Of a stretch of 64,000 nucleotides of DNA, positions 14,398-22,692 are shown in pieces. The notes below the pieces were generated by a model that saw only the letters and a list, made by a program, of their open reading frames with translations, did no database searches and had not been told where the DNA came from. The stretch spans positions 124,001-188,000 of the forward strand of contig NZ_JASBAN010000001.1 of the NCBI RefSeq assembly GCF_029953305.1, given 5' to 3'. A program made the translations under genes and the position numbers. The DNA is from Commensalibacter nepenthis. GTDB lineage: Bacteria; Pseudomonadota; Alphaproteobacteria; Acetobacterales; Acetobacteraceae. How positions within the stretch are numbered: the stretch's first letter is position 1; each line of letters starts with the position of its first letter.

Positions 14398-15108
14398 TTA
14401 GACGGGTATATTATTATTTAGACCGAATATGCTTTGAATGAGTTTTATTTGTTCGTTGATTGTCCATTTTCCTTTAAAACCCAGTCCTTTTTTAATCCAG
14501 AGAATGGCCTCATATCCTTTGAGTGTTTTTCTTGCTGTATGAAAAGATTGAAAACAGCCATTTCTTGGTATACCCCTCTTTAACCTGAAATGATCATTTT
14601 CTATTCCCTGTTGTAAGGATTTTTTTGTTTCATGAACGCAGTGATTGGGAAGGATATACTCATTCTTCATGGTCTGTATGGTTTTTGGAAACGGTAATGC
14701 TTTATCTGTTCCAATATGAGTGGGTGCAAATAGACCATCTTTTTTAAACGCCTTTCTAAAGAAACGTTGTGCTGCTTTGATATTTCTTTTAGCTGTTAAT
14801 AAGAAATCAATAGCAGTTCCATTCTTATCAATGGCTCTATATAGATACTTCCACTGACCTTTTACTTTGATATAGGTTTCATCAATCCTCACCTCACCAC
14901 AATGAGGTTTTCTATAGCTTCTCAAACGTTTTTCTAATAGAGGAGCATAGCGTAATACCCAACGGTTTAACGTGCTATGATCTACATTTATCCCACGTTC
15001 TAAAAACAATTCCTCAATGTCTCGATAGCTAAGACAATAGCGTAAATACCAGTTTACCGCTTGTATAATCATCAATCCATTAAAATGACGACCTTGGTCT
15101 TGTCGCAA
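14398..15108 (-). CDS. IS6-family transposase
   Basis: 236 residues. It begins with the family's GRHFNGLMIIQAVNWYLRY segment and HTH (LSYRDIEELFLERGINVDHSTLNRWVLRYAP), then the DDE domain with VRIDETYIKVKGQWKYLYRA, HIGTDKALPF and QGIENDHFRLKRG. The catalytic D, D and E are all present. The only available start is a TTG that overlaps the terminal repeat (TTGCGACAAGACC), so a few native N-terminal residues may have been lost to the adjoining 151-bp module. Activity is therefore uncertain. The last codons are repeated in the remnant near 6100. Confidence 0.88.
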   Translation of the reverse strand: MRQDQGRHFNGLMIIQAVNWYLRYCLSYRDIEELFLERGINVDHSTLNRWVLRYAPLLEKRLRSYRKPHCGEVRIDETYIKVKGQWKYLYRAIDKNGTAIDFLLTAKRNIKAAQRFFRKAFKKDGLFAPTHIGTDKALPFPKTIQTMKNEYILPNHCVHETKKSLQQGIENDHFRLKRGIPRNGCFQSFHTARKTLKGYEAILWIKKGLGFKGKWTINEQIKLIQSIFGLNNNIPV

Positions 15109-15246
15109 AGTTTTTAGTTTAGTGGTTTTTAATATTATTTCTGCAAAATAGAATTTTTTAATTTATTGAATTATATAGATATTGTATAATAACTAATACT
15201 AGTAAAAACTTAAAATTTTATAAAATTTAAACTTTGCGACAAAACC
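15096..15246. repeat. 151-bp inverted-repeat-bounded module, copy B
   Basis: Same length as, and nearly identical to, copy A at 5835-5985, but in reverse orientation (GGTCTTGTCGCAAAG to CTTTGCGACAAAACC). It contains no gene; the one open frame through it into the transposase lacks ATG, GTG or TTG before the terminal-repeat TTG. It may supply a promoter to the transposase. Its outer edge coincides exactly with the left edge of IS481 copy 2. Confidence 0.7.
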
Positions 15247-16117
15247 GTAGGAATTGATCGCGTTATTTACAGTGATATGGAATATTACTGTAAATAACAT
15301 GCATAGAAAAACGAAGCTTACACTGTATCATCGAGAAGAGATATGGCGATTACATCATCAAGAGAAAGTCACGGTAACGGATCTGGCTAAGCGTTTTATG
15401 GTCAGCAGACCTACGATTTATGTTGTATTAAGGCGTGCTCGGTTGCAATTATTTGTGCCGATGTCCAGCACAAATGAGCGTTATAAAGTGATCAAATATG
15501 GCATTAAACGCCTTGCTAAGATTGAAAAAACACTTGAGGACAAGCTCAGACGGCAAGCCAAAAAATATAACAAATCTTATCCTGGGGAGATGGTGCATGT
15601 CGATACAAAACGGCTTCCTTTGTTGAAAAATGAGACTAAACAGCAAACTCGGGAGTATCTTTTTGTAGGTATTGATGATTTTTCTCGAGAACTCTATGCA
15701 GGGATTTACAACGATAAATCTCAGTTTAGTGCAGCTCAGTTCCTACAAGACGATGTGCTGGTTCAATGCCCTTATATGATCGAATGTGTTTACTCTGACA
15801 ATGGCAGAGAATACCAAGGAACGCTTGAACATCTGTTTGTTAAATCTTGTTATACCAATCGGATTAACCAGAAATTTACCAAGCCGGCTTGCCCTCAAAC
15901 CAATGGCAAAGCAGAGCGCGTCATTCGCACACTCATGGAAATGTGGCATGAGCGTGAATTGTTCGTCAATGCTCAAGATCGAAAGTTAAAGTTGAAACGT
16001 TTTATTAATTATTATAACACTGTTAAACCCCATAAAGGCATTCAAGGAAAAACACCCTATGAGGTCTTAGATGGTTATTTTAAACAAAATCTGTAAACAA
16101 CGCGACCAATTCTTACA
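15246..16117 (+). mobile_element. IS481-family insertion sequence, copy 2
   Basis: 872 bp if the first base is counted at 15246, where the expected terminal T is a C shared with the IS6-type module (ACAAAACC-GTAGGAATTG). The right end finishes GCGACCAATTCTTACA at 16117. The terminal repeats show a few mismatches relative to copy 1 (GTTATTTACAG on the left; GCGACCAATT on the right). No target repeat is visible, because the left side abuts the IS6 element. Confidence 0.88.
15299..16096 (+). CDS. IS481-family transposase
   Basis: Full-length transposase of copy 2 (265 residues from MHRKTKL), with an intact HTH and DDE core. It differs from copy 1 at a handful of residues (for example VTVTDLAKRF, KYNKSYPGEMVHVDTKR) and is almost identical to copy 4, so copies 2 and 4 form a subgroup distinct from copies 1 and 3. 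Here the ATG present 6 bases upstream in copy 1 is changed, which supports MHRKTKL as the common start. Confidence 0.92.
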   Translation: MHRKTKLTLYHREEIWRLHHQEKVTVTDLAKRFMVSRPTIYVVLRRARLQLFVPMSSTNERYKVIKYGIKRLAKIEKTLEDKLRRQAKKYNKSYPGEMVHVDTKRLPLLKNETKQQTREYLFVGIDDFSRELYAGIYNDKSQFSAAQFLQDDVLVQCPYMIECVYSDNGREYQGTLEHLFVKSCYTNRINQKFTKPACPQTNGKAERVIRTLMEMWHERELFVNAQDRKLKLKRFINYYNTVKPHKGIQGKTPYEVLDGYFKQNL

Positions 16118-17974: not shown

Positions 17975-18763
17975 TTAAGCTGGAATTTCTGATGTTTCTT
18001 CGATAGAAATAGTTTCCATCATCACTTCAGGAGGCAACTCTTCTGAAGCACCAAAATCTTGACCAGAAGCACCAAGTTCAGCAGAAATACCGTCTAGTAC
18101 AGCACCAGCAACCAACTCACAATAAAGATTGATAGAGCGTAATGCATCGTCGTTTCCAGGAACAGGATAGGTAATTCCTGCTGGATCAGAGTTACTATCC
18201 AAAATAGCAACAACAGGGATACCCAATTTATTTGCTTCTTGAACAGCTAATTTTTCTTTGTTGGTGTCAATAATGAAAAGAATGTCTGGAAGACCACCCA
18301 TTTCTTTAATACCGCCCAAAGAGCGTTCCAATTTTTCACGTTCACGTGTTAATTGCAGCACTTCTTTTTTGGTCAAACCAGCTGTATCCCCATCAAGGGT
18401 TTCTTCAACATGGCGTAAACGTTTAATAGAATTGGTAATTGTTTTCCAGTTGGTCAACATACCACCCAACCAACGATGATTTACATAATATTGACCACAA
18501 CGTTTTGCAGTTTCAGCAACACTTTCTGCTGCTGTACGTTTTGTTCCAACAAAAAGAACACGTCCACCATTAGCAACAGTATCACGAACTGCATTTAATG
18601 CGCGATCCAACATAGGAACGGTTTGTTGCAAATCGATAATATGAACCTGATTACGAACCCCAAACAAAAATGGAGCCATTTTTGGGTTCCAACGACGGGT
18701 GTGATGTCCAAAATGAACACCAGCTTCTAATAATTGACGTAAGGTAAAATGTGGCATCGCCAT
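17975..18763 (-). CDS. rpsB: 30S ribosomal protein S2
   Basis: 262 residues with [46 protein letters not shown] and [12 protein letters not shown], all standard S2. The start is either ATG at 18763 (MAMPHF) or 18757 (MPHF); AAAGGAAG precedes it. The C-terminus has an acidic extension typical of alphaproteobacterial S2. S2 is commonly autoregulated through its leader. Confidence 0.97.
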
Positions 18764-18915
18764 TTGACGTGCTTCCTTTCTTTCTGGTTAAACCTCCGTA
18801 AAGCGCCGATCCATATTTCAGTCACCAGTGGCAAAAACTTTACGTGTGAATTATCGATCAATCTCGATAGAGCTTATATGAAAGAATTTTAAGGAAAAAT
18901 CAAGTGATTATTTGC
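18764..18915 (-). promoter_or_regulatory. rpsB promoter and leader region
   Basis: On the transcribed strand a possible -35 TTGATT is followed after 17 bases by CATATA, then a leader of about 110 bases containing ATCGAGATTGATCGAT, GCCACTGGTGAC and TTTACGGAGGTTTAACC before the start. The CGGAGG lies about 30 bases upstream of the start codon, too far to be its ribosome site, so it may be part of an RNA structure sensed by S2. This is inference from position and from known S2 autoregulation. Confidence 0.35.
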
Positions 18916-18990
18916 GCAATAATTTGATTACACAAGTTTATTAAAAATATTATAATAGATTAACGGTAGGTACATATACTATTGATAATA

Positions 18991-19008
18991 AGGCGACCAA
19001 TTCCTACA
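18991..19008. repeat. Solo IS481-type right end
   Basis: AGGCGACCAATTCCTACA matches the right end of IS481 copy 2 (GCGACCAATTCTTACA) with one change. No transposase or left end accompanies it. It is probably the scar of an eroded or recombined copy, since the partial gene that follows begins right at its edge. Confidence 0.55.
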
Positions 19009-19184
19009 AATTAAGCTGCCAACTTTGTAACAAAGAAAACCTAAAGAGCAATCATCAAGCACTTCGCAAGCATTTTGAAAAAATCTTACCCAAAGAATTT
19101 GACTTTACGGTCTATCCACAATTTAATGCTCAGACTCTTCAGGACATACACCCTGATATTTCTCAGCTCAATAAGTTAGATTGA
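19009..19184 (+). pseudogene. 3' fragment of an unrecognised gene next to a solo IS481 end
   Basis: The frame LSCQLCNKENLKSNHQALRK, then HFEKILPKEFDFTVYPQFNA, ending DISQLNKLD-stop, is open from the IS481 scar to a TGA at 19182-19184 and lacks a start. About 58 codons remain. A CxxC (CQLC) sits at its beginning. It looks like the C-terminus of a gene truncated by an IS that has since mostly been lost. I cannot name it. The EamA gene starts 11 bases on. Confidence 0.45.
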
Positions 19185-19194
19185 TATATAAACA

Positions 19195-20076
19195 ATGTCT
19201 GCAAAGCTACAAGGTATTATCTTAATCCTCCTCGGCACGATCAGCTATGGATTGCCAGCTTCTTTAATTAAACTATCTAAACAAGACGGCATCACCGAAG
19301 CCAATATTCTATTTTTTCAATTCTTTTTTGGCTGCTTTGCTTTGGGCATATTCTATTTCTTTAGTAGCAAGAAAAACAAACCTAATGAAACAACATTAGA
19401 TCACAGCGCAAAAAAGCGTCTTATTCTGTCTGGCACTGCGTTGGCATTAACAAATTCATTTTATTTCACATCCCTAGAATATGTTTCCGTTGCCATTGCA
19501 GCTGTGATGTTGATGCAATCAGTATGGATTACTTCCGTTTTAGATTTTATTTTCAAAAAGATCGTCCCTAGCCCAATACAAGTGATCTCTATCATCATGG
19601 TTTTATTAGGGACAATCCTCACTGCTAATCTTATCAGTTCCAATATTGTTATTTCCCCATTTGGATTATTCCTTAGCTTTATGTCTGGCGTTTGTTATGC
19701 GGTCACGATTATGGTTACGAATAATCTAGCCCCTCAAGCCTCTGCATTTGGCAGGTCATTTTATATCTCATTAGGGGCATTTATTGTGATTAGTATACTT
19801 TGGGGATGGTCTATTGATTTTTCTATCATTCCATTATCTTTAAAATGGGGAATAATAATCGCTTGTTTTTCCATCGTCTTGCCGTTGTTACTGTTCGCAC
19901 AAGGTATGCCCAATATTACAGCAGGAATTGGAGGTGTTTTATCCGCGTTGGAGTTGCCTGCTGCAATAATATTTGCCTATTTTATCCTTGATGAACATAT
20001 CAACTTATTACAATTTGTTGGGGTTCTTCTTATTTTCGCAGCAATTAGCAGTGTTAATTTAATCGATGAAAATTAA
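19195..20076 (+). CDS. EamA/DMT-family transporter
   Basis: 293 residues with ten predicted membrane helices in two EamA halves: first half GTISYGLPASLIKLSKQDG..., second half from about residue 150 with GVCYAVTIMVTNNLAP and GVLSALELPAAIIFAYFILDE. It is an inner-membrane drug/metabolite exporter of unknown substrate. There is no clear Shine-Dalgarno, and the start is at the ATG after ATAAACA. The upstream neighbour is IS scar, so its native promoter may have been replaced. Confidence 0.88.
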   Translation: MSAKLQGIILILLGTISYGLPASLIKLSKQDGITEANILFFQFFFGCFALGIFYFFSSKKNKPNETTLDHSAKKRLILSGTALALTNSFYFTSLEYVSVAIAAVMLMQSVWITSVLDFIFKKIVPSPIQVISIIMVLLGTILTANLISSNIVISPFGLFLSFMSGVCYAVTIMVTNNLAPQASAFGRSFYISLGAFIVISILWGWSIDFSIIPLSLKWGIIIACFSIVLPLLLFAQGMPNITAGIGGVLSALELPAAIIFAYFILDEHINLLQFVGVLLIFAAISSVNLIDEN

Positions 20077-20104: not shown

Positions 20105-20137
20105 CAATACCGTCATAAAATATACATAACGGTATTG
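20105..20137. terminator. Bidirectional terminator-like hairpin
   Basis: Perfect 9-bp arms CAATACCGT (20105-20113) and ACGGTATTG (20129-20137) with a 15-base AT-rich loop. It lies between the convergent EamA and phosphatase-autotransporter genes, where it could serve both. T tracts are weak on either side. Confidence 0.5.
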
Positions 20138-20155: not shown

Positions 20156-22105
20156 CTAAAAATTCAGTGTTGTTCCAAGCATTCCATTTACACCATGACT
20201 ATTTAACCCAGCACCATAGTAATCCGCACTGATATTAAACGACCACTGCCCTCTTTTGGCGGTTAAATGTGCGCCTGCTTTATAGATATTGGGGCTGTTA
20301 AAGGCTGAATATTGTTTAACACCCATTCTATAAACTGTTCCGTACTGATTAACGCTAGCATTGCTTAAAATACGTTCATATCCCAAATTGACCCCAGGCA
20401 TAAAACTCCATTGTCCAGAGTGCAAAGGATTAAAGTTTATATCAATATTGGCTACTAAACTGGGTTGGATTTTATCATATTTAGACATATTTAATGCCAG
20501 CTCGCTCCCTTTCTCACGAACACGACCTAAATGTAAACTGGTTACTTGCATACCAACTGAAGGGTCAATCGTAAATGATTGTGCTTTGAACAACCATCCA
20601 GCCATAGCACGACCACTATAGTAAGCACCGCTAGTATTCCCATTGGTTGTGCCAAACCCATTTCCTAATTGGCGTTCACTTTGATAATTAATATAACCGA
20701 TATTTGCTTGCGCCCTTATCCATGCACCTGAATTATCCAACCCTCTAAATGCATAATTTCCACCCAAAGTCACAAAGCCACTATTCGTCGTAACACGACC
20801 ACCATTACTGCTCACATTCCCATAATTATATCCAAATCCACCATTGACGGATAAATTCTGATTAAAGCGATGTGTTAAGCCAAAAACTGTTCCGCCTGTA
20901 TATTCATTGCTGGAATTAAAACCATTTCTTGAATCTGTGCTAAGGTAATTACTTAACCCTTGCATCCAAAACGCAGTTTCTCCTTTTTTCATTCCTCTGC
21001 CTGTTGTCAAGGGCATTAACATGTCATTCATTTTAGAAGGTTGACGCAATAAATAACTCGCTGCATCCGCATAGACTTGCCCGCCAACACGCATTTCTAA
21101 ACCGTTCAACGTTCCTTGATCGATTGCGGATTGAAGGTAATAATTATAATTCGTATAAGCTCCTGATAAAGCCGTCCCTTGCAATGCATTTAATAGATTT
21201 GCACCAGAGGCAGCATTGCCTTTAAAGTTTTCTTGACCAGGCAAAGTTAAATAACGCACCATTTTTCCACGCAATACATAGATAGTGGCTTGATCCAATC
21301 CCAACCCTTGTTTAAGATAATTATCCATCGTGCCATAAGTTTGGGCAACTTGATCAAAACCCGCTTGCAGCCAAGATTGATCCACAGACATGATGGTTCG
21401 ATAAGATTCTTGCATAGATGCTGGTAATTTTGCCACCGTTGCATTAATACGCGAAGCCGTATATGCATTGGTTGCCAAATAATTTGATACGATATCCTGT
21501 TTATCCATGCCTGCAAGAGATTGTAACACTGCCGCAGTCCACCCTGTGCGATCTTTGCCAGCTGTACAATGGAATAACGCCGCAGAATCAGCATTTGCGA
21601 GTATTCTCAACTCAGTCCCAAAACCAGATCTGGCGTAAGGATCTGTTACAAAGTTACGCTCTGTTTGTTGCATCATACTATTGATCTGGTCTTTGTTTAA
21701 ACTACCATAATCTAGGGTAACAGCACTATTTTGATTCCCTATAATATCGACATGATAATAAGAAGTATTCGGAGCAAGCGTATCGGGTGTTGCTGCTATT
21801 TCCAAATCGGTTCTTAGGTCAATAACGGTGCCAATATTCAATTTTTCCATTACACTAAGGTCATTACCAACAGGTGTAATTGCATTTGAACGGTAAAATA
21901 CCCCTGATCTCATTACGCCATTATGAGCGGTTGTATAAGCGGTATCAACCCCCGCAATATCGCGGAAATTATCCATTCCTTGCAATCTTGGTGTATTTAA
22001 TTGCGTTGTTTGTGCAAAGGCAATATCCGTAACGGAAAATAACGGGGCCATGAATAATAGGCTAGCAATACAAGAAGAGGATAGAAAAGAAAACTTTACG
22101 TTCAT
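20156..22105 (-). CDS. Secreted tyrosine phosphatase-like domain fused to an autotransporter beta-barrel
   Basis: 649 residues from the chosen start (MNVKFSFL), which gives a clean signal peptide cleaved after AFA near residue 31; the open frame extends 12 codons further. Residues 35-300 are a Y_phosphatase3/LipA-type dual-specificity phosphatase: NFRDIAG, VIDLRTDLE and the P-loop HCTAGKDRTG (catalytic Cys180, Arg186). Residues from about 385 (GMKKGETAFWMQGL) to the end form an autotransporter barrel with alternating aromatic strands and a terminal Phe (GTTLNF). The layout predicts a phosphatase carried to the cell surface. The substrate is unknown: phosphoprotein, phosphoinositide or phosphate scavenging are all possible. 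Confidence 0.9.
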   Translation of the reverse strand: MNVKFSFLSSSCIASLLFMAPLFSVTDIAFAQTTQLNTPRLQGMDNFRDIAGVDTAYTTAHNGVMRSGVFYRSNAITPVGNDLSVMEKLNIGTVIDLRTDLEIAATPDTLAPNTSYYHVDIIGNQNSAVTLDYGSLNKDQINSMMQQTERNFVTDPYARSGFGTELRILANADSAALFHCTAGKDRTGWTAAVLQSLAGMDKQDIVSNYLATNAYTASRINATVAKLPASMQESYRTIMSVDQSWLQAGFDQVAQTYGTMDNYLKQGLGLDQATIYVLRGKMVRYLTLPGQENFKGNAASGANLLNALQGTALSGAYTNYNYYLQSAIDQGTLNGLEMRVGGQVYADAASYLLRQPSKMNDMLMPLTTGRGMKKGETAFWMQGLSNYLSTDSRNGFNSSNEYTGGTVFGLTHRFNQNLSVNGGFGYNYGNVSSNGGRVTTNSGFVTLGGNYAFRGLDNSGAWIRAQANIGYINYQSERQLGNGFGTTNGNTSGAYYSGRAMAGWLFKAQSFTIDPSVGMQVTSLHLGRVREKGSELALNMSKYDKIQPSLVANIDINFNPLHSGQWSFMPGVNLGYERILSNASVNQYGTVYRMGVKQYSAFNSPNIYKAGAHLTAKRGQWSFNISADYYGAGLNSHGVNGMLGTTLNF

Positions 22106-22305
22106 AATAAAACCATCGTTATAAGTAAAAATTATACCCATTGGTTTAAAGAATAATTTTAATAAATAACAATGAATAGAATGTTAAATAATCATTAAAA
22201 TTTTATTATGTTACGAATATCATATTAAAAATAATATTTACAGTCATTCTAAGTTATAGATTGATTATGTTAGAACTTAAAATGATCTGTAAACAATAAA
22301 AATTG

Positions 22306-22692
22306 TTACTCTACTTTAGATAACAATGCTTTGTCACAACCCGAATTTTTACATTCTCTTTCGATTGATTTCAACAAAGAAATCCGCTTTTCCATTTTAT
22401 CATTAACACAATCCAAAGTCACAGTTCCACCATTAGAACATTCACTATCACGAGCTCTGATCCATTGAATTTGTGCCTTTTTAACGTCTTTCTTTTGATC
22501 GGCTGTTAAAACTTTAATTGTTTTGCCATATTGATCGTTAATCTCTTTATCTAACTGAGTCATTTTTAAAGATGCACAATATGTTTTATCATAAGCATTA
22601 ATTGGGTTGCCACAACTCAAAGCAAACACTGCTGGCGCAAACGCAAATTGTGCCAATAATCCGGCAATCAAAAGAGTCTTTTTAATCATCAT
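22306..22692 (-). CDS. LprI/DUF1311-family secreted protein
   Basis: 128 residues with a signal peptide (MMIKKTLLIAGLLAQFAFAP ... FALS) and a cysteine-rich LprI region: SCGNPINAYDKTYCASLKM, TQLDKEINDQYGK, QIQWIRARDSEC, LDCVNDKMEKRI. The spacing of the Cys and the WIRARDxEC motif is the family's. Some relatives inhibit lysozymes in the envelope; here that is only inferred. AAGGAATAG precedes the start. It follows the cytochrome c gene by 28 bases and may be the last gene of that operon. Confidence 0.85.
   Translation of the reverse strand: MMIKKTLLIAGLLAQFAFAPAVFALSCGNPINAYDKTYCASLKMTQLDKEINDQYGKTIKVLTADQKKDVKKAQIQWIRARDSECSNGGTVTLDCVNDKMEKRISLLKSIERECKNSGCDKALLSKVE

Follow-up and report, generated by a model that had tools for sequence, protein, structure and literature searches.

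A predicted tyrosine-phosphatase passenger on a classical autotransporter barrel in Commensalibacter nepenthis, with relatives in Pseudomonas and enteric bacteria

We analyzed a 64,000-nucleotide stretch of the Commensalibacter nepenthis genome, here called the window (assembly GCF_029953305.1, contig NZ_JASBAN010000001.1, positions 124,001 to 188,000), which carries on its minus strand a gene for an autotransporter with a phosphatase passenger. Commensalibacter is an acetic acid bacterium of insects, and the closest relatives of the protein come from C. communis (91% identical) and C. papalotli (93% identical), in keeping with the insect-associated bacterium assumed in an initial annotation of this DNA. 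The gene runs from an ATG at 22105 to a stop at 20156; an alternative frame of 661 residues begins at 22141, with the 22105 start favored by the signal-peptide pattern. The gene and its parts are as follows.

20156..22105, minus strand: phosphatase autotransporter gene, an open frame of 649 amino acids with Pfam PF13350 and PF03797
22013..22105, minus strand: signal peptide, residues 1-31, of typical Sec pattern as judged by eye, with cleavage predicted after AFA and before Gln32
21257..21988, minus strand: Y_phosphatase3 (MptpB/LipA-like) passenger, residues 40-283, Pfam PF13350
21542..21571, minus strand: P-loop HCTAGKDRTG, residues 179-188, with the predicted nucleophile Cys180; its signature residues unchanged in all 47 fusions
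20978..21253, minus strand: linker region, residues 285-376, with helix 339-367 entering the barrel (model, NalP alignment, low dN/dS)
20159..20977, minus strand: autotransporter beta-barrel, residues 377-649, with C-terminal Phe and twelve long strands counted in the model

The single 649-residue frame with HCTAGKDRTG and a C-terminal barrel ending in Phe, as initially annotated without naming the strand, is borne out by the open frame, by Phe649, and by two Pfam matches, Y_phosphatase3 (PF13350, residues 40-283, E 7.7e-57) and Autotransporter (PF03797, residues 379-627, E 1.7e-24). Up to an E value of 1, Pfam adds just a sub-cut-off match to PTP-SAK, with no PAP2 domain and no stalk repeat, and NCBIfam has no match to the protein. 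Within the 2.5-Mb source genome the window's barrel is the single match to PF03797, and PF13350 has one weak match elsewhere (23.1 bits, cut-off 22.2). Structure prediction, which had been proposed as a check, yields both halves. Modeled alone, the passenger takes a mostly helical protein tyrosine phosphatase (PTP) fold (mean predicted local distance difference test score [pLDDT] 65.7, predicted template modeling score [pTM] 0.70). The full-length model predicts helix 339-367 and a first barrel strand at 377, so that the earlier guess of a linker at about 300-385 was roughly correct, and alignments to NalP begin at residues 338-341. A C-terminal PF03797 barrel with a terminal aromatic residue and a helix leading into it are features of type Va autotransporters.

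The active site is strictly conserved. Comparisons were made on 47 aligned fusions, a set that excludes the own genome and repeats (L001, L022, L023, L042, and L043), duplicate records (L060, L068, L025, and L076), a frameshifted copy (L021), and matches not spanning residues 40-600. Arg48, Asp49, Arg72, Asp96, Arg98, His179, Cys180, Gly183, Lys184, Asp185, Arg186, and Gly188 are invariant in all 47. HCxxGKDRTG is likewise present throughout, with exact HCTAGKDRTG in 43 and variation at the x positions in the remaining four. Cys180 is the sole cysteine downstream of the signal peptide, and exactly one mature cysteine is found in 46 of the 47 fusions, the exception being a copy from an enteric genome that is interrupted by a stop. 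In 18 passenger-only relatives the matching stretch holds two or three cysteines in 11 cases, one in 6, and none in 1, counts that are uncorrected for kinship. One passenger-only relative, L078 (genome G867; the same region as L049), carries Ser at the Cys position of the P-loop (HSSAGKDRTG) and may be a pseudophosphatase. HCxxGKDR is the signature of the MptpB/LipA atypical lipid phosphatases (PMC8027504), and both this loop and the family fold, as seen in the passenger model, are present in the window protein.

Selection on the gene is purifying, with whole-gene ratios of nonsynonymous to synonymous substitution rates (dN/dS) of 0.051, 0.057, and 0.096 against three congeners. The linker has the lowest values in the first two comparisons (0.008 and 0.015; the third is not computable) and the signal peptide the highest of the segments (0.31 and 0.43; two comparisons, 31 codons). 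Across genera the passenger has diverged less than the barrel, at 58% versus 36% identity to 17 Pseudomonas sequences and 64% versus 44% to 8 enteric sequences, which together with purifying selection fits an enzyme and not a variable adhesin. A passenger that is enzymatically silent and serves as a binding or structural module would have a parallel in the natural Cys-to-Ser loop of L078 but is highly improbable, given catalytic positions invariant in every fusion and a strongly constrained passenger.

The distribution of the fusion is patchy, with a few groups in which it is widespread. In a Pseudomonas genus sample around carrier G249, 61 of 298 genomes match at 1e-40, with a full-length copy in 59; of the other two, G515 has a different protein and G295 a copy split over two frames. 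The family of carrier G890 has matches in 10 of 295 genomes, one with an internal stop, and we infer that this family is Enterobacteriaceae, because the aroG and gpmA genes next to one copy share up to 81.6% identity with those of Escherichia coli. A search of Acetobacteraceae for the same domain pair, suggested with the initial annotation, found one-piece fusions in 3 of 249 genomes, all belonging to the same genus as the window, for which 6 genomes are listed. A fourth genome, G129, has the fusion on two contigs overlapping by 127 identical bases. The remaining Acetobacteraceae matches cover passenger or barrel, never both in one stretch, and a search of this family for other genes on the same barrel type gave just weak separate barrel matches. 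A phylum-wide sample has 8 of 398 genomes matching at 1e-30, 6 at full length (own genome included) and 2 passenger-only, and among 369 genomes of the class of G890 the one match is G890 itself. Conserved in three bacterial groups and under purifying selection, the domain fusion is far beyond chance. Broken copies also occur, with a frameshift in P. putida KH-21-134 (L021, 5001-6895) and an internal stop in the enteric copy L058. Phage or plasmid carriage was considered and rejected, as none of the records of 50,697 phages and 72,556 plasmids has 80% of the query at a single site and the passenger gave no relative in a pattern-based scan of viral contigs. Carriage by E. coli was likewise rejected, the enteric gene L094:7473-9386 having no match in an E. 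coli collection.

Phylogeny suggests that Commensalibacter probably acquired the fusion gene horizontally, from enteric bacteria. In a first tree of all 47 rows, Commensalibacter arises from within a set of nine enteric sequences, and it does so again in a more careful tree of 39 rows, from which seven near-copies and L063, a long row, were removed. Support in the careful tree is 99/97 for Commensalibacter with six enteric rows and 100/100 for all thirteen. A passenger tree (59 of 68 rows, minus L049, L050, and seven near-copies) places the fused sequences together against 18 passenger-only sequences with a Shimodaira-Hasegawa-like approximate likelihood ratio test value of 91%, below the 95 mark, and so agrees with a single origin of the fusion without proving it. 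At the corresponding site in the congeners G040, G122, and G173, a cytochrome c gene adjoins an lpxB-like gene (named by eye) with no insert. In G246 an LprI-like gene, the fusion, and an EamA gene lie between the two, and in G214 this place is taken by an LprI-like gene, the fusion, and three more genes, of which one is phage-like. These three lie between the fusion and the lpxB-like gene (L091:5183-7579), and the one adjoining the fusion matches a phage tail/neck terminator family. Enteric genomes carry the fusion at several different core-gene junctions (gene names by eye), and this variety suggests repeated gain. The G+C content of the gene is slightly higher than that of the window (40.1% versus 36.9%). 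The flank past EamA (window 17975-20076) is rpsB- and tsf-like here and the same in C. communis after one extra gene, and in C. papalotli it is an lpxB-like gene (all by eye); as the flank differs between congeners, the region has been rearranged.

Taken together, we consider it likely that the gene encodes a classical type Va autotransporter of the EstA-like design, with no beta-helical stalk, which displays a tethered surface phosphatase of the MptpB/LipA family, and that the gene came from enterics. The proposal builds on the computed domains, folds, conserved catalytic residues, purifying selection, and spread. Sec would export the protein, the C-terminal barrel would insert into the outer membrane with the linker helix plugging the pore, and the globular phosphatase would fold outside the cell and remain tethered there. 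Catalysis would involve Cys180 as nucleophile together with Lys184, Asp185, and Arg186, which belong to the HCxxGKDR signature, and in the gut or plant milieu the enzyme would dephosphorylate small phosphomonoesters, phosphotyrosine, or (phospho)inositides. Phosphotyrosine and phosphoinositides are the substrates described for relatives (PMC8027504). Because an outer-membrane tether would make a cytosolic host target unlikely, extracellular phosphomonoesters are favored.

Several points weigh against this interpretation. Activity and localization of the autotransporter are predictions from sequence and models, and the substrate class is an extrapolation from relatives that are 23-27% identical. 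The model of the passenger alone is of moderate confidence, with pLDDT below 50 at its residues 1-45 and 252-269; the passenger was folded separately because the full-length AlphaFold2 (AF2) model is weak there (mean pLDDT 58.3), and the models were built from alignments of 20 sequences from two genera. In the third dN/dS comparison dS is near saturation, at 1.99. As for the enteric source, the approximately unbiased (AU) test rejects a tree constrained to group the nine enteric rows to the exclusion of Commensalibacter (p-AU 0.016), with that group named after the first tree had been inspected, and one enteric-family row, L059, lies outside the enteric branch and groups with Pseudomonas rows.

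The enzyme might instead be a nutritional phosphatase of the phosphate-starvation response, which frees phosphate from organic phosphates such as plant or pollen inositol phosphates. The carriers, Pseudomonas, enterics, and an insect-gut genus, share no single host; the next-best folds matching the passenger model are AtPFA-DSP1 and Siw14, the former acting on inositol pyrophosphates and the latter doing so by its entry title; and a homologous linker-barrel carries a PAP2 phosphatase. We regard this as possible, if on the doubtful side, in view of the regulatory evidence. A Pho-box-like match beats 95% of mononucleotide shuffles (p <0.05) in 2 of 33 upstream regions, about the chance level, giving no general support for phosphate-starvation control. 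The Pseudomonas neighbor is an AraC-type regulator gene, convergent and downstream within ~1.7 kb in 20 of 22 Pseudomonas-side loci searched, the other two having 1.5-kb flanks; an example is L004:8532-9503 (minus strand), with matching places in other Pseudomonas loci. The same search turned up no AraC-type gene at the Commensalibacter and enteric loci (enteric flanks mostly 1.5 kb, three ~8 kb).

Many autotransporters undergo cleavage, and the same enzyme could be released into the medium by an outside protease or by an uncharted self-cleavage, with a possible site in residues 280-342, where confidence in the full model is low. We think release quite unlikely, since no Asn-Asn occurs in the aligned 330-400 region of any of the 47 fusions, since residues 285-338, at 63% to Pseudomonas and 67% to enterics, are too well conserved to resemble a loose linker for cleavage, and since GDSL-lipase autotransporters such as EstA are described as largely tethered (PMC9289746). 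Improbable to much the same degree is a host-directed phosphatase disturbing host signaling. The passenger shares its family and P-loop type with the secreted LipA and MptpB (PMC8027504), and the carrier is a gut symbiont, but a tethered outer-membrane domain would not reach the host cytosol, the same gene is present in many Pseudomonas genomes, and none of the scanned neighbor genes indicates host interaction.

Beyond a tethered phosphatase of this one kind, a second protein bears on the history of the barrel. L067:33-2441 (plus strand, 802 amino acids), from the Pseudomonas genus sample, combines PAP2, a PATR repeat, and a barrel. Over 342 residues its linker-barrel is 34% identical to that of the window protein (E 3e-62), with the motif around VGGQ among the shared sequence, and the catalytic domains of the two are unrelated folds. 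L067 is like MapA, which a 2022 review describes as an acid phosphatase and predicts to be beta-helical in part (PMC9289746), and like the phosphatidic-phosphatase subgroup of a 2018 survey of type Va autotransporters (PMC5767081). Across 361 genomes of the Pseudomonas order, 7 have linker-barrel relatives; four are the phosphatase fusion and three are weak, with passengers beta-helical by eye. One reading, which we put forward tentatively and think unlikely as a whole, is that a single lineage of pre-linker, helix, and barrel carried two unrelated phosphatase folds, PTP and PAP2, to the surface, with residues 285-338 as the counterpart of a helical autochaperone, and that the PTP version passed among Pseudomonas, enterics, and insect symbionts as a tethered phosphatase of inositol phosphates or phosphoinositides, with its only Cys as the nucleophile. 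It is a lead, because the PAP2 version is present in one genome of 298 at the strict threshold.

Two further features flank the autotransporter gene.

20105..20137, minus strand: terminator-like hairpin just 3' of the gene, with a 13-pair stem and T-rich tail
22306..22692, minus strand: LprI-like small protein gene adjoining the autotransporter gene (Pfam LprI, 5.3e-12)

Position alone speaks for a terminator role of the hairpin, as shuffles yield equally many such sites (2 found versus 2.1). The LprI-like gene adjoins the fusion in all four Commensalibacter loci examined, and none of the Pseudomonas or enteric loci searched has a match to it (most enteric flanks 1.5 kb). Farther off, at window 14398-16096, lie two transposase-like frames, DDE_Tnp_IS240 (minus strand) and an rve_3 integrase-core protein (plus strand).

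Known systems share parts of this design. MapA of Moraxella catarrhalis reportedly has a class A acid phosphatase passenger and not a PTP fold, and the window protein, with no such PAP2-type passenger, is not of the MapA type. The two have in common a phosphatase activity on an autotransporter, predicted in the case of the window protein (PMC3419190 and PMC9289746 for MapA), and MapA differs further in the beta-helical part, Type 2, that the review predicts for it (PMC9289746). EstA of Pseudomonas aeruginosa (PDB 3kvn) has the same stalkless type Va enzyme design, but its passenger is a GDSL esterase and not a Cys-based phosphatase, and AaaA of P. aeruginosa (9oqa) is an autotransporter with an aminopeptidase passenger. 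MptpB (M. tuberculosis PtpB, 1ywf/2oz5), LipA of Listeria, and a Clostridioides difficile PTP (8dhi) are free-standing enzymes with no barrel. The characterized enzyme passengers in the review's account are proteases, esterases, an aminopeptidase, an acid phosphatase, and a sialidase (PMC9289746).

The closest precedent is the 2018 survey, whose phosphatase/hydrolase autotransporters (PHATs) include tyrosine phosphatases with alpha-helical passengers and no autochaperone of the usual kind, and whose discussion supposes a helical autochaperone for such passengers (PMC5767081). The window protein likewise has a tyrosine-phosphatase domain as passenger on a type Va barrel, with PF13350 and PF03797 in one chain, the survey's entry (IPR029021) differing from the PF13350 used here; its passenger model is mostly helical with no Pfam stalk repeat, and an autochaperone was not searched for. 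The class is sequence-based, and the survey text names no member protein, activity, or substrate, nor does its main text include Pseudomonas (PMC5767081). The tyrosine-phosphatase autotransporter is thus a kind already known by sequence. The initial annotation could name no phosphatase passengers of this type, a point corrected by the PHAT class and MapA, and its Y_phosphatase3/LipA-type assignment stands with PF13350. As to whether this is a common, already characterized family, the fusion is widespread and its kind named in the survey, and no experimental study of a tyrosine-phosphatase autotransporter was found in the open-license literature (supplements, subscription journals, and domain-architecture databases lying outside that scope).

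Added here are the link to the MptpB/LipA family, backed by the fold and the active site, the rule of a single cysteine, the distribution of the fusion, its probable transfer into Commensalibacter with insert-free congeners, the AraC-type neighbor, and a linker-barrel in common with a PAP2 protein, along with a conserved pre-linker (about 285-338) as a candidate for the supposed helical autochaperone. Because it is widespread in Pseudomonas and enteric bacteria, the fusion is no special trait of an insect symbiont, and a widespread family with a clear active site, a single cysteine, and tractable hosts among Pseudomonas and insect symbionts means that the class could be tested.
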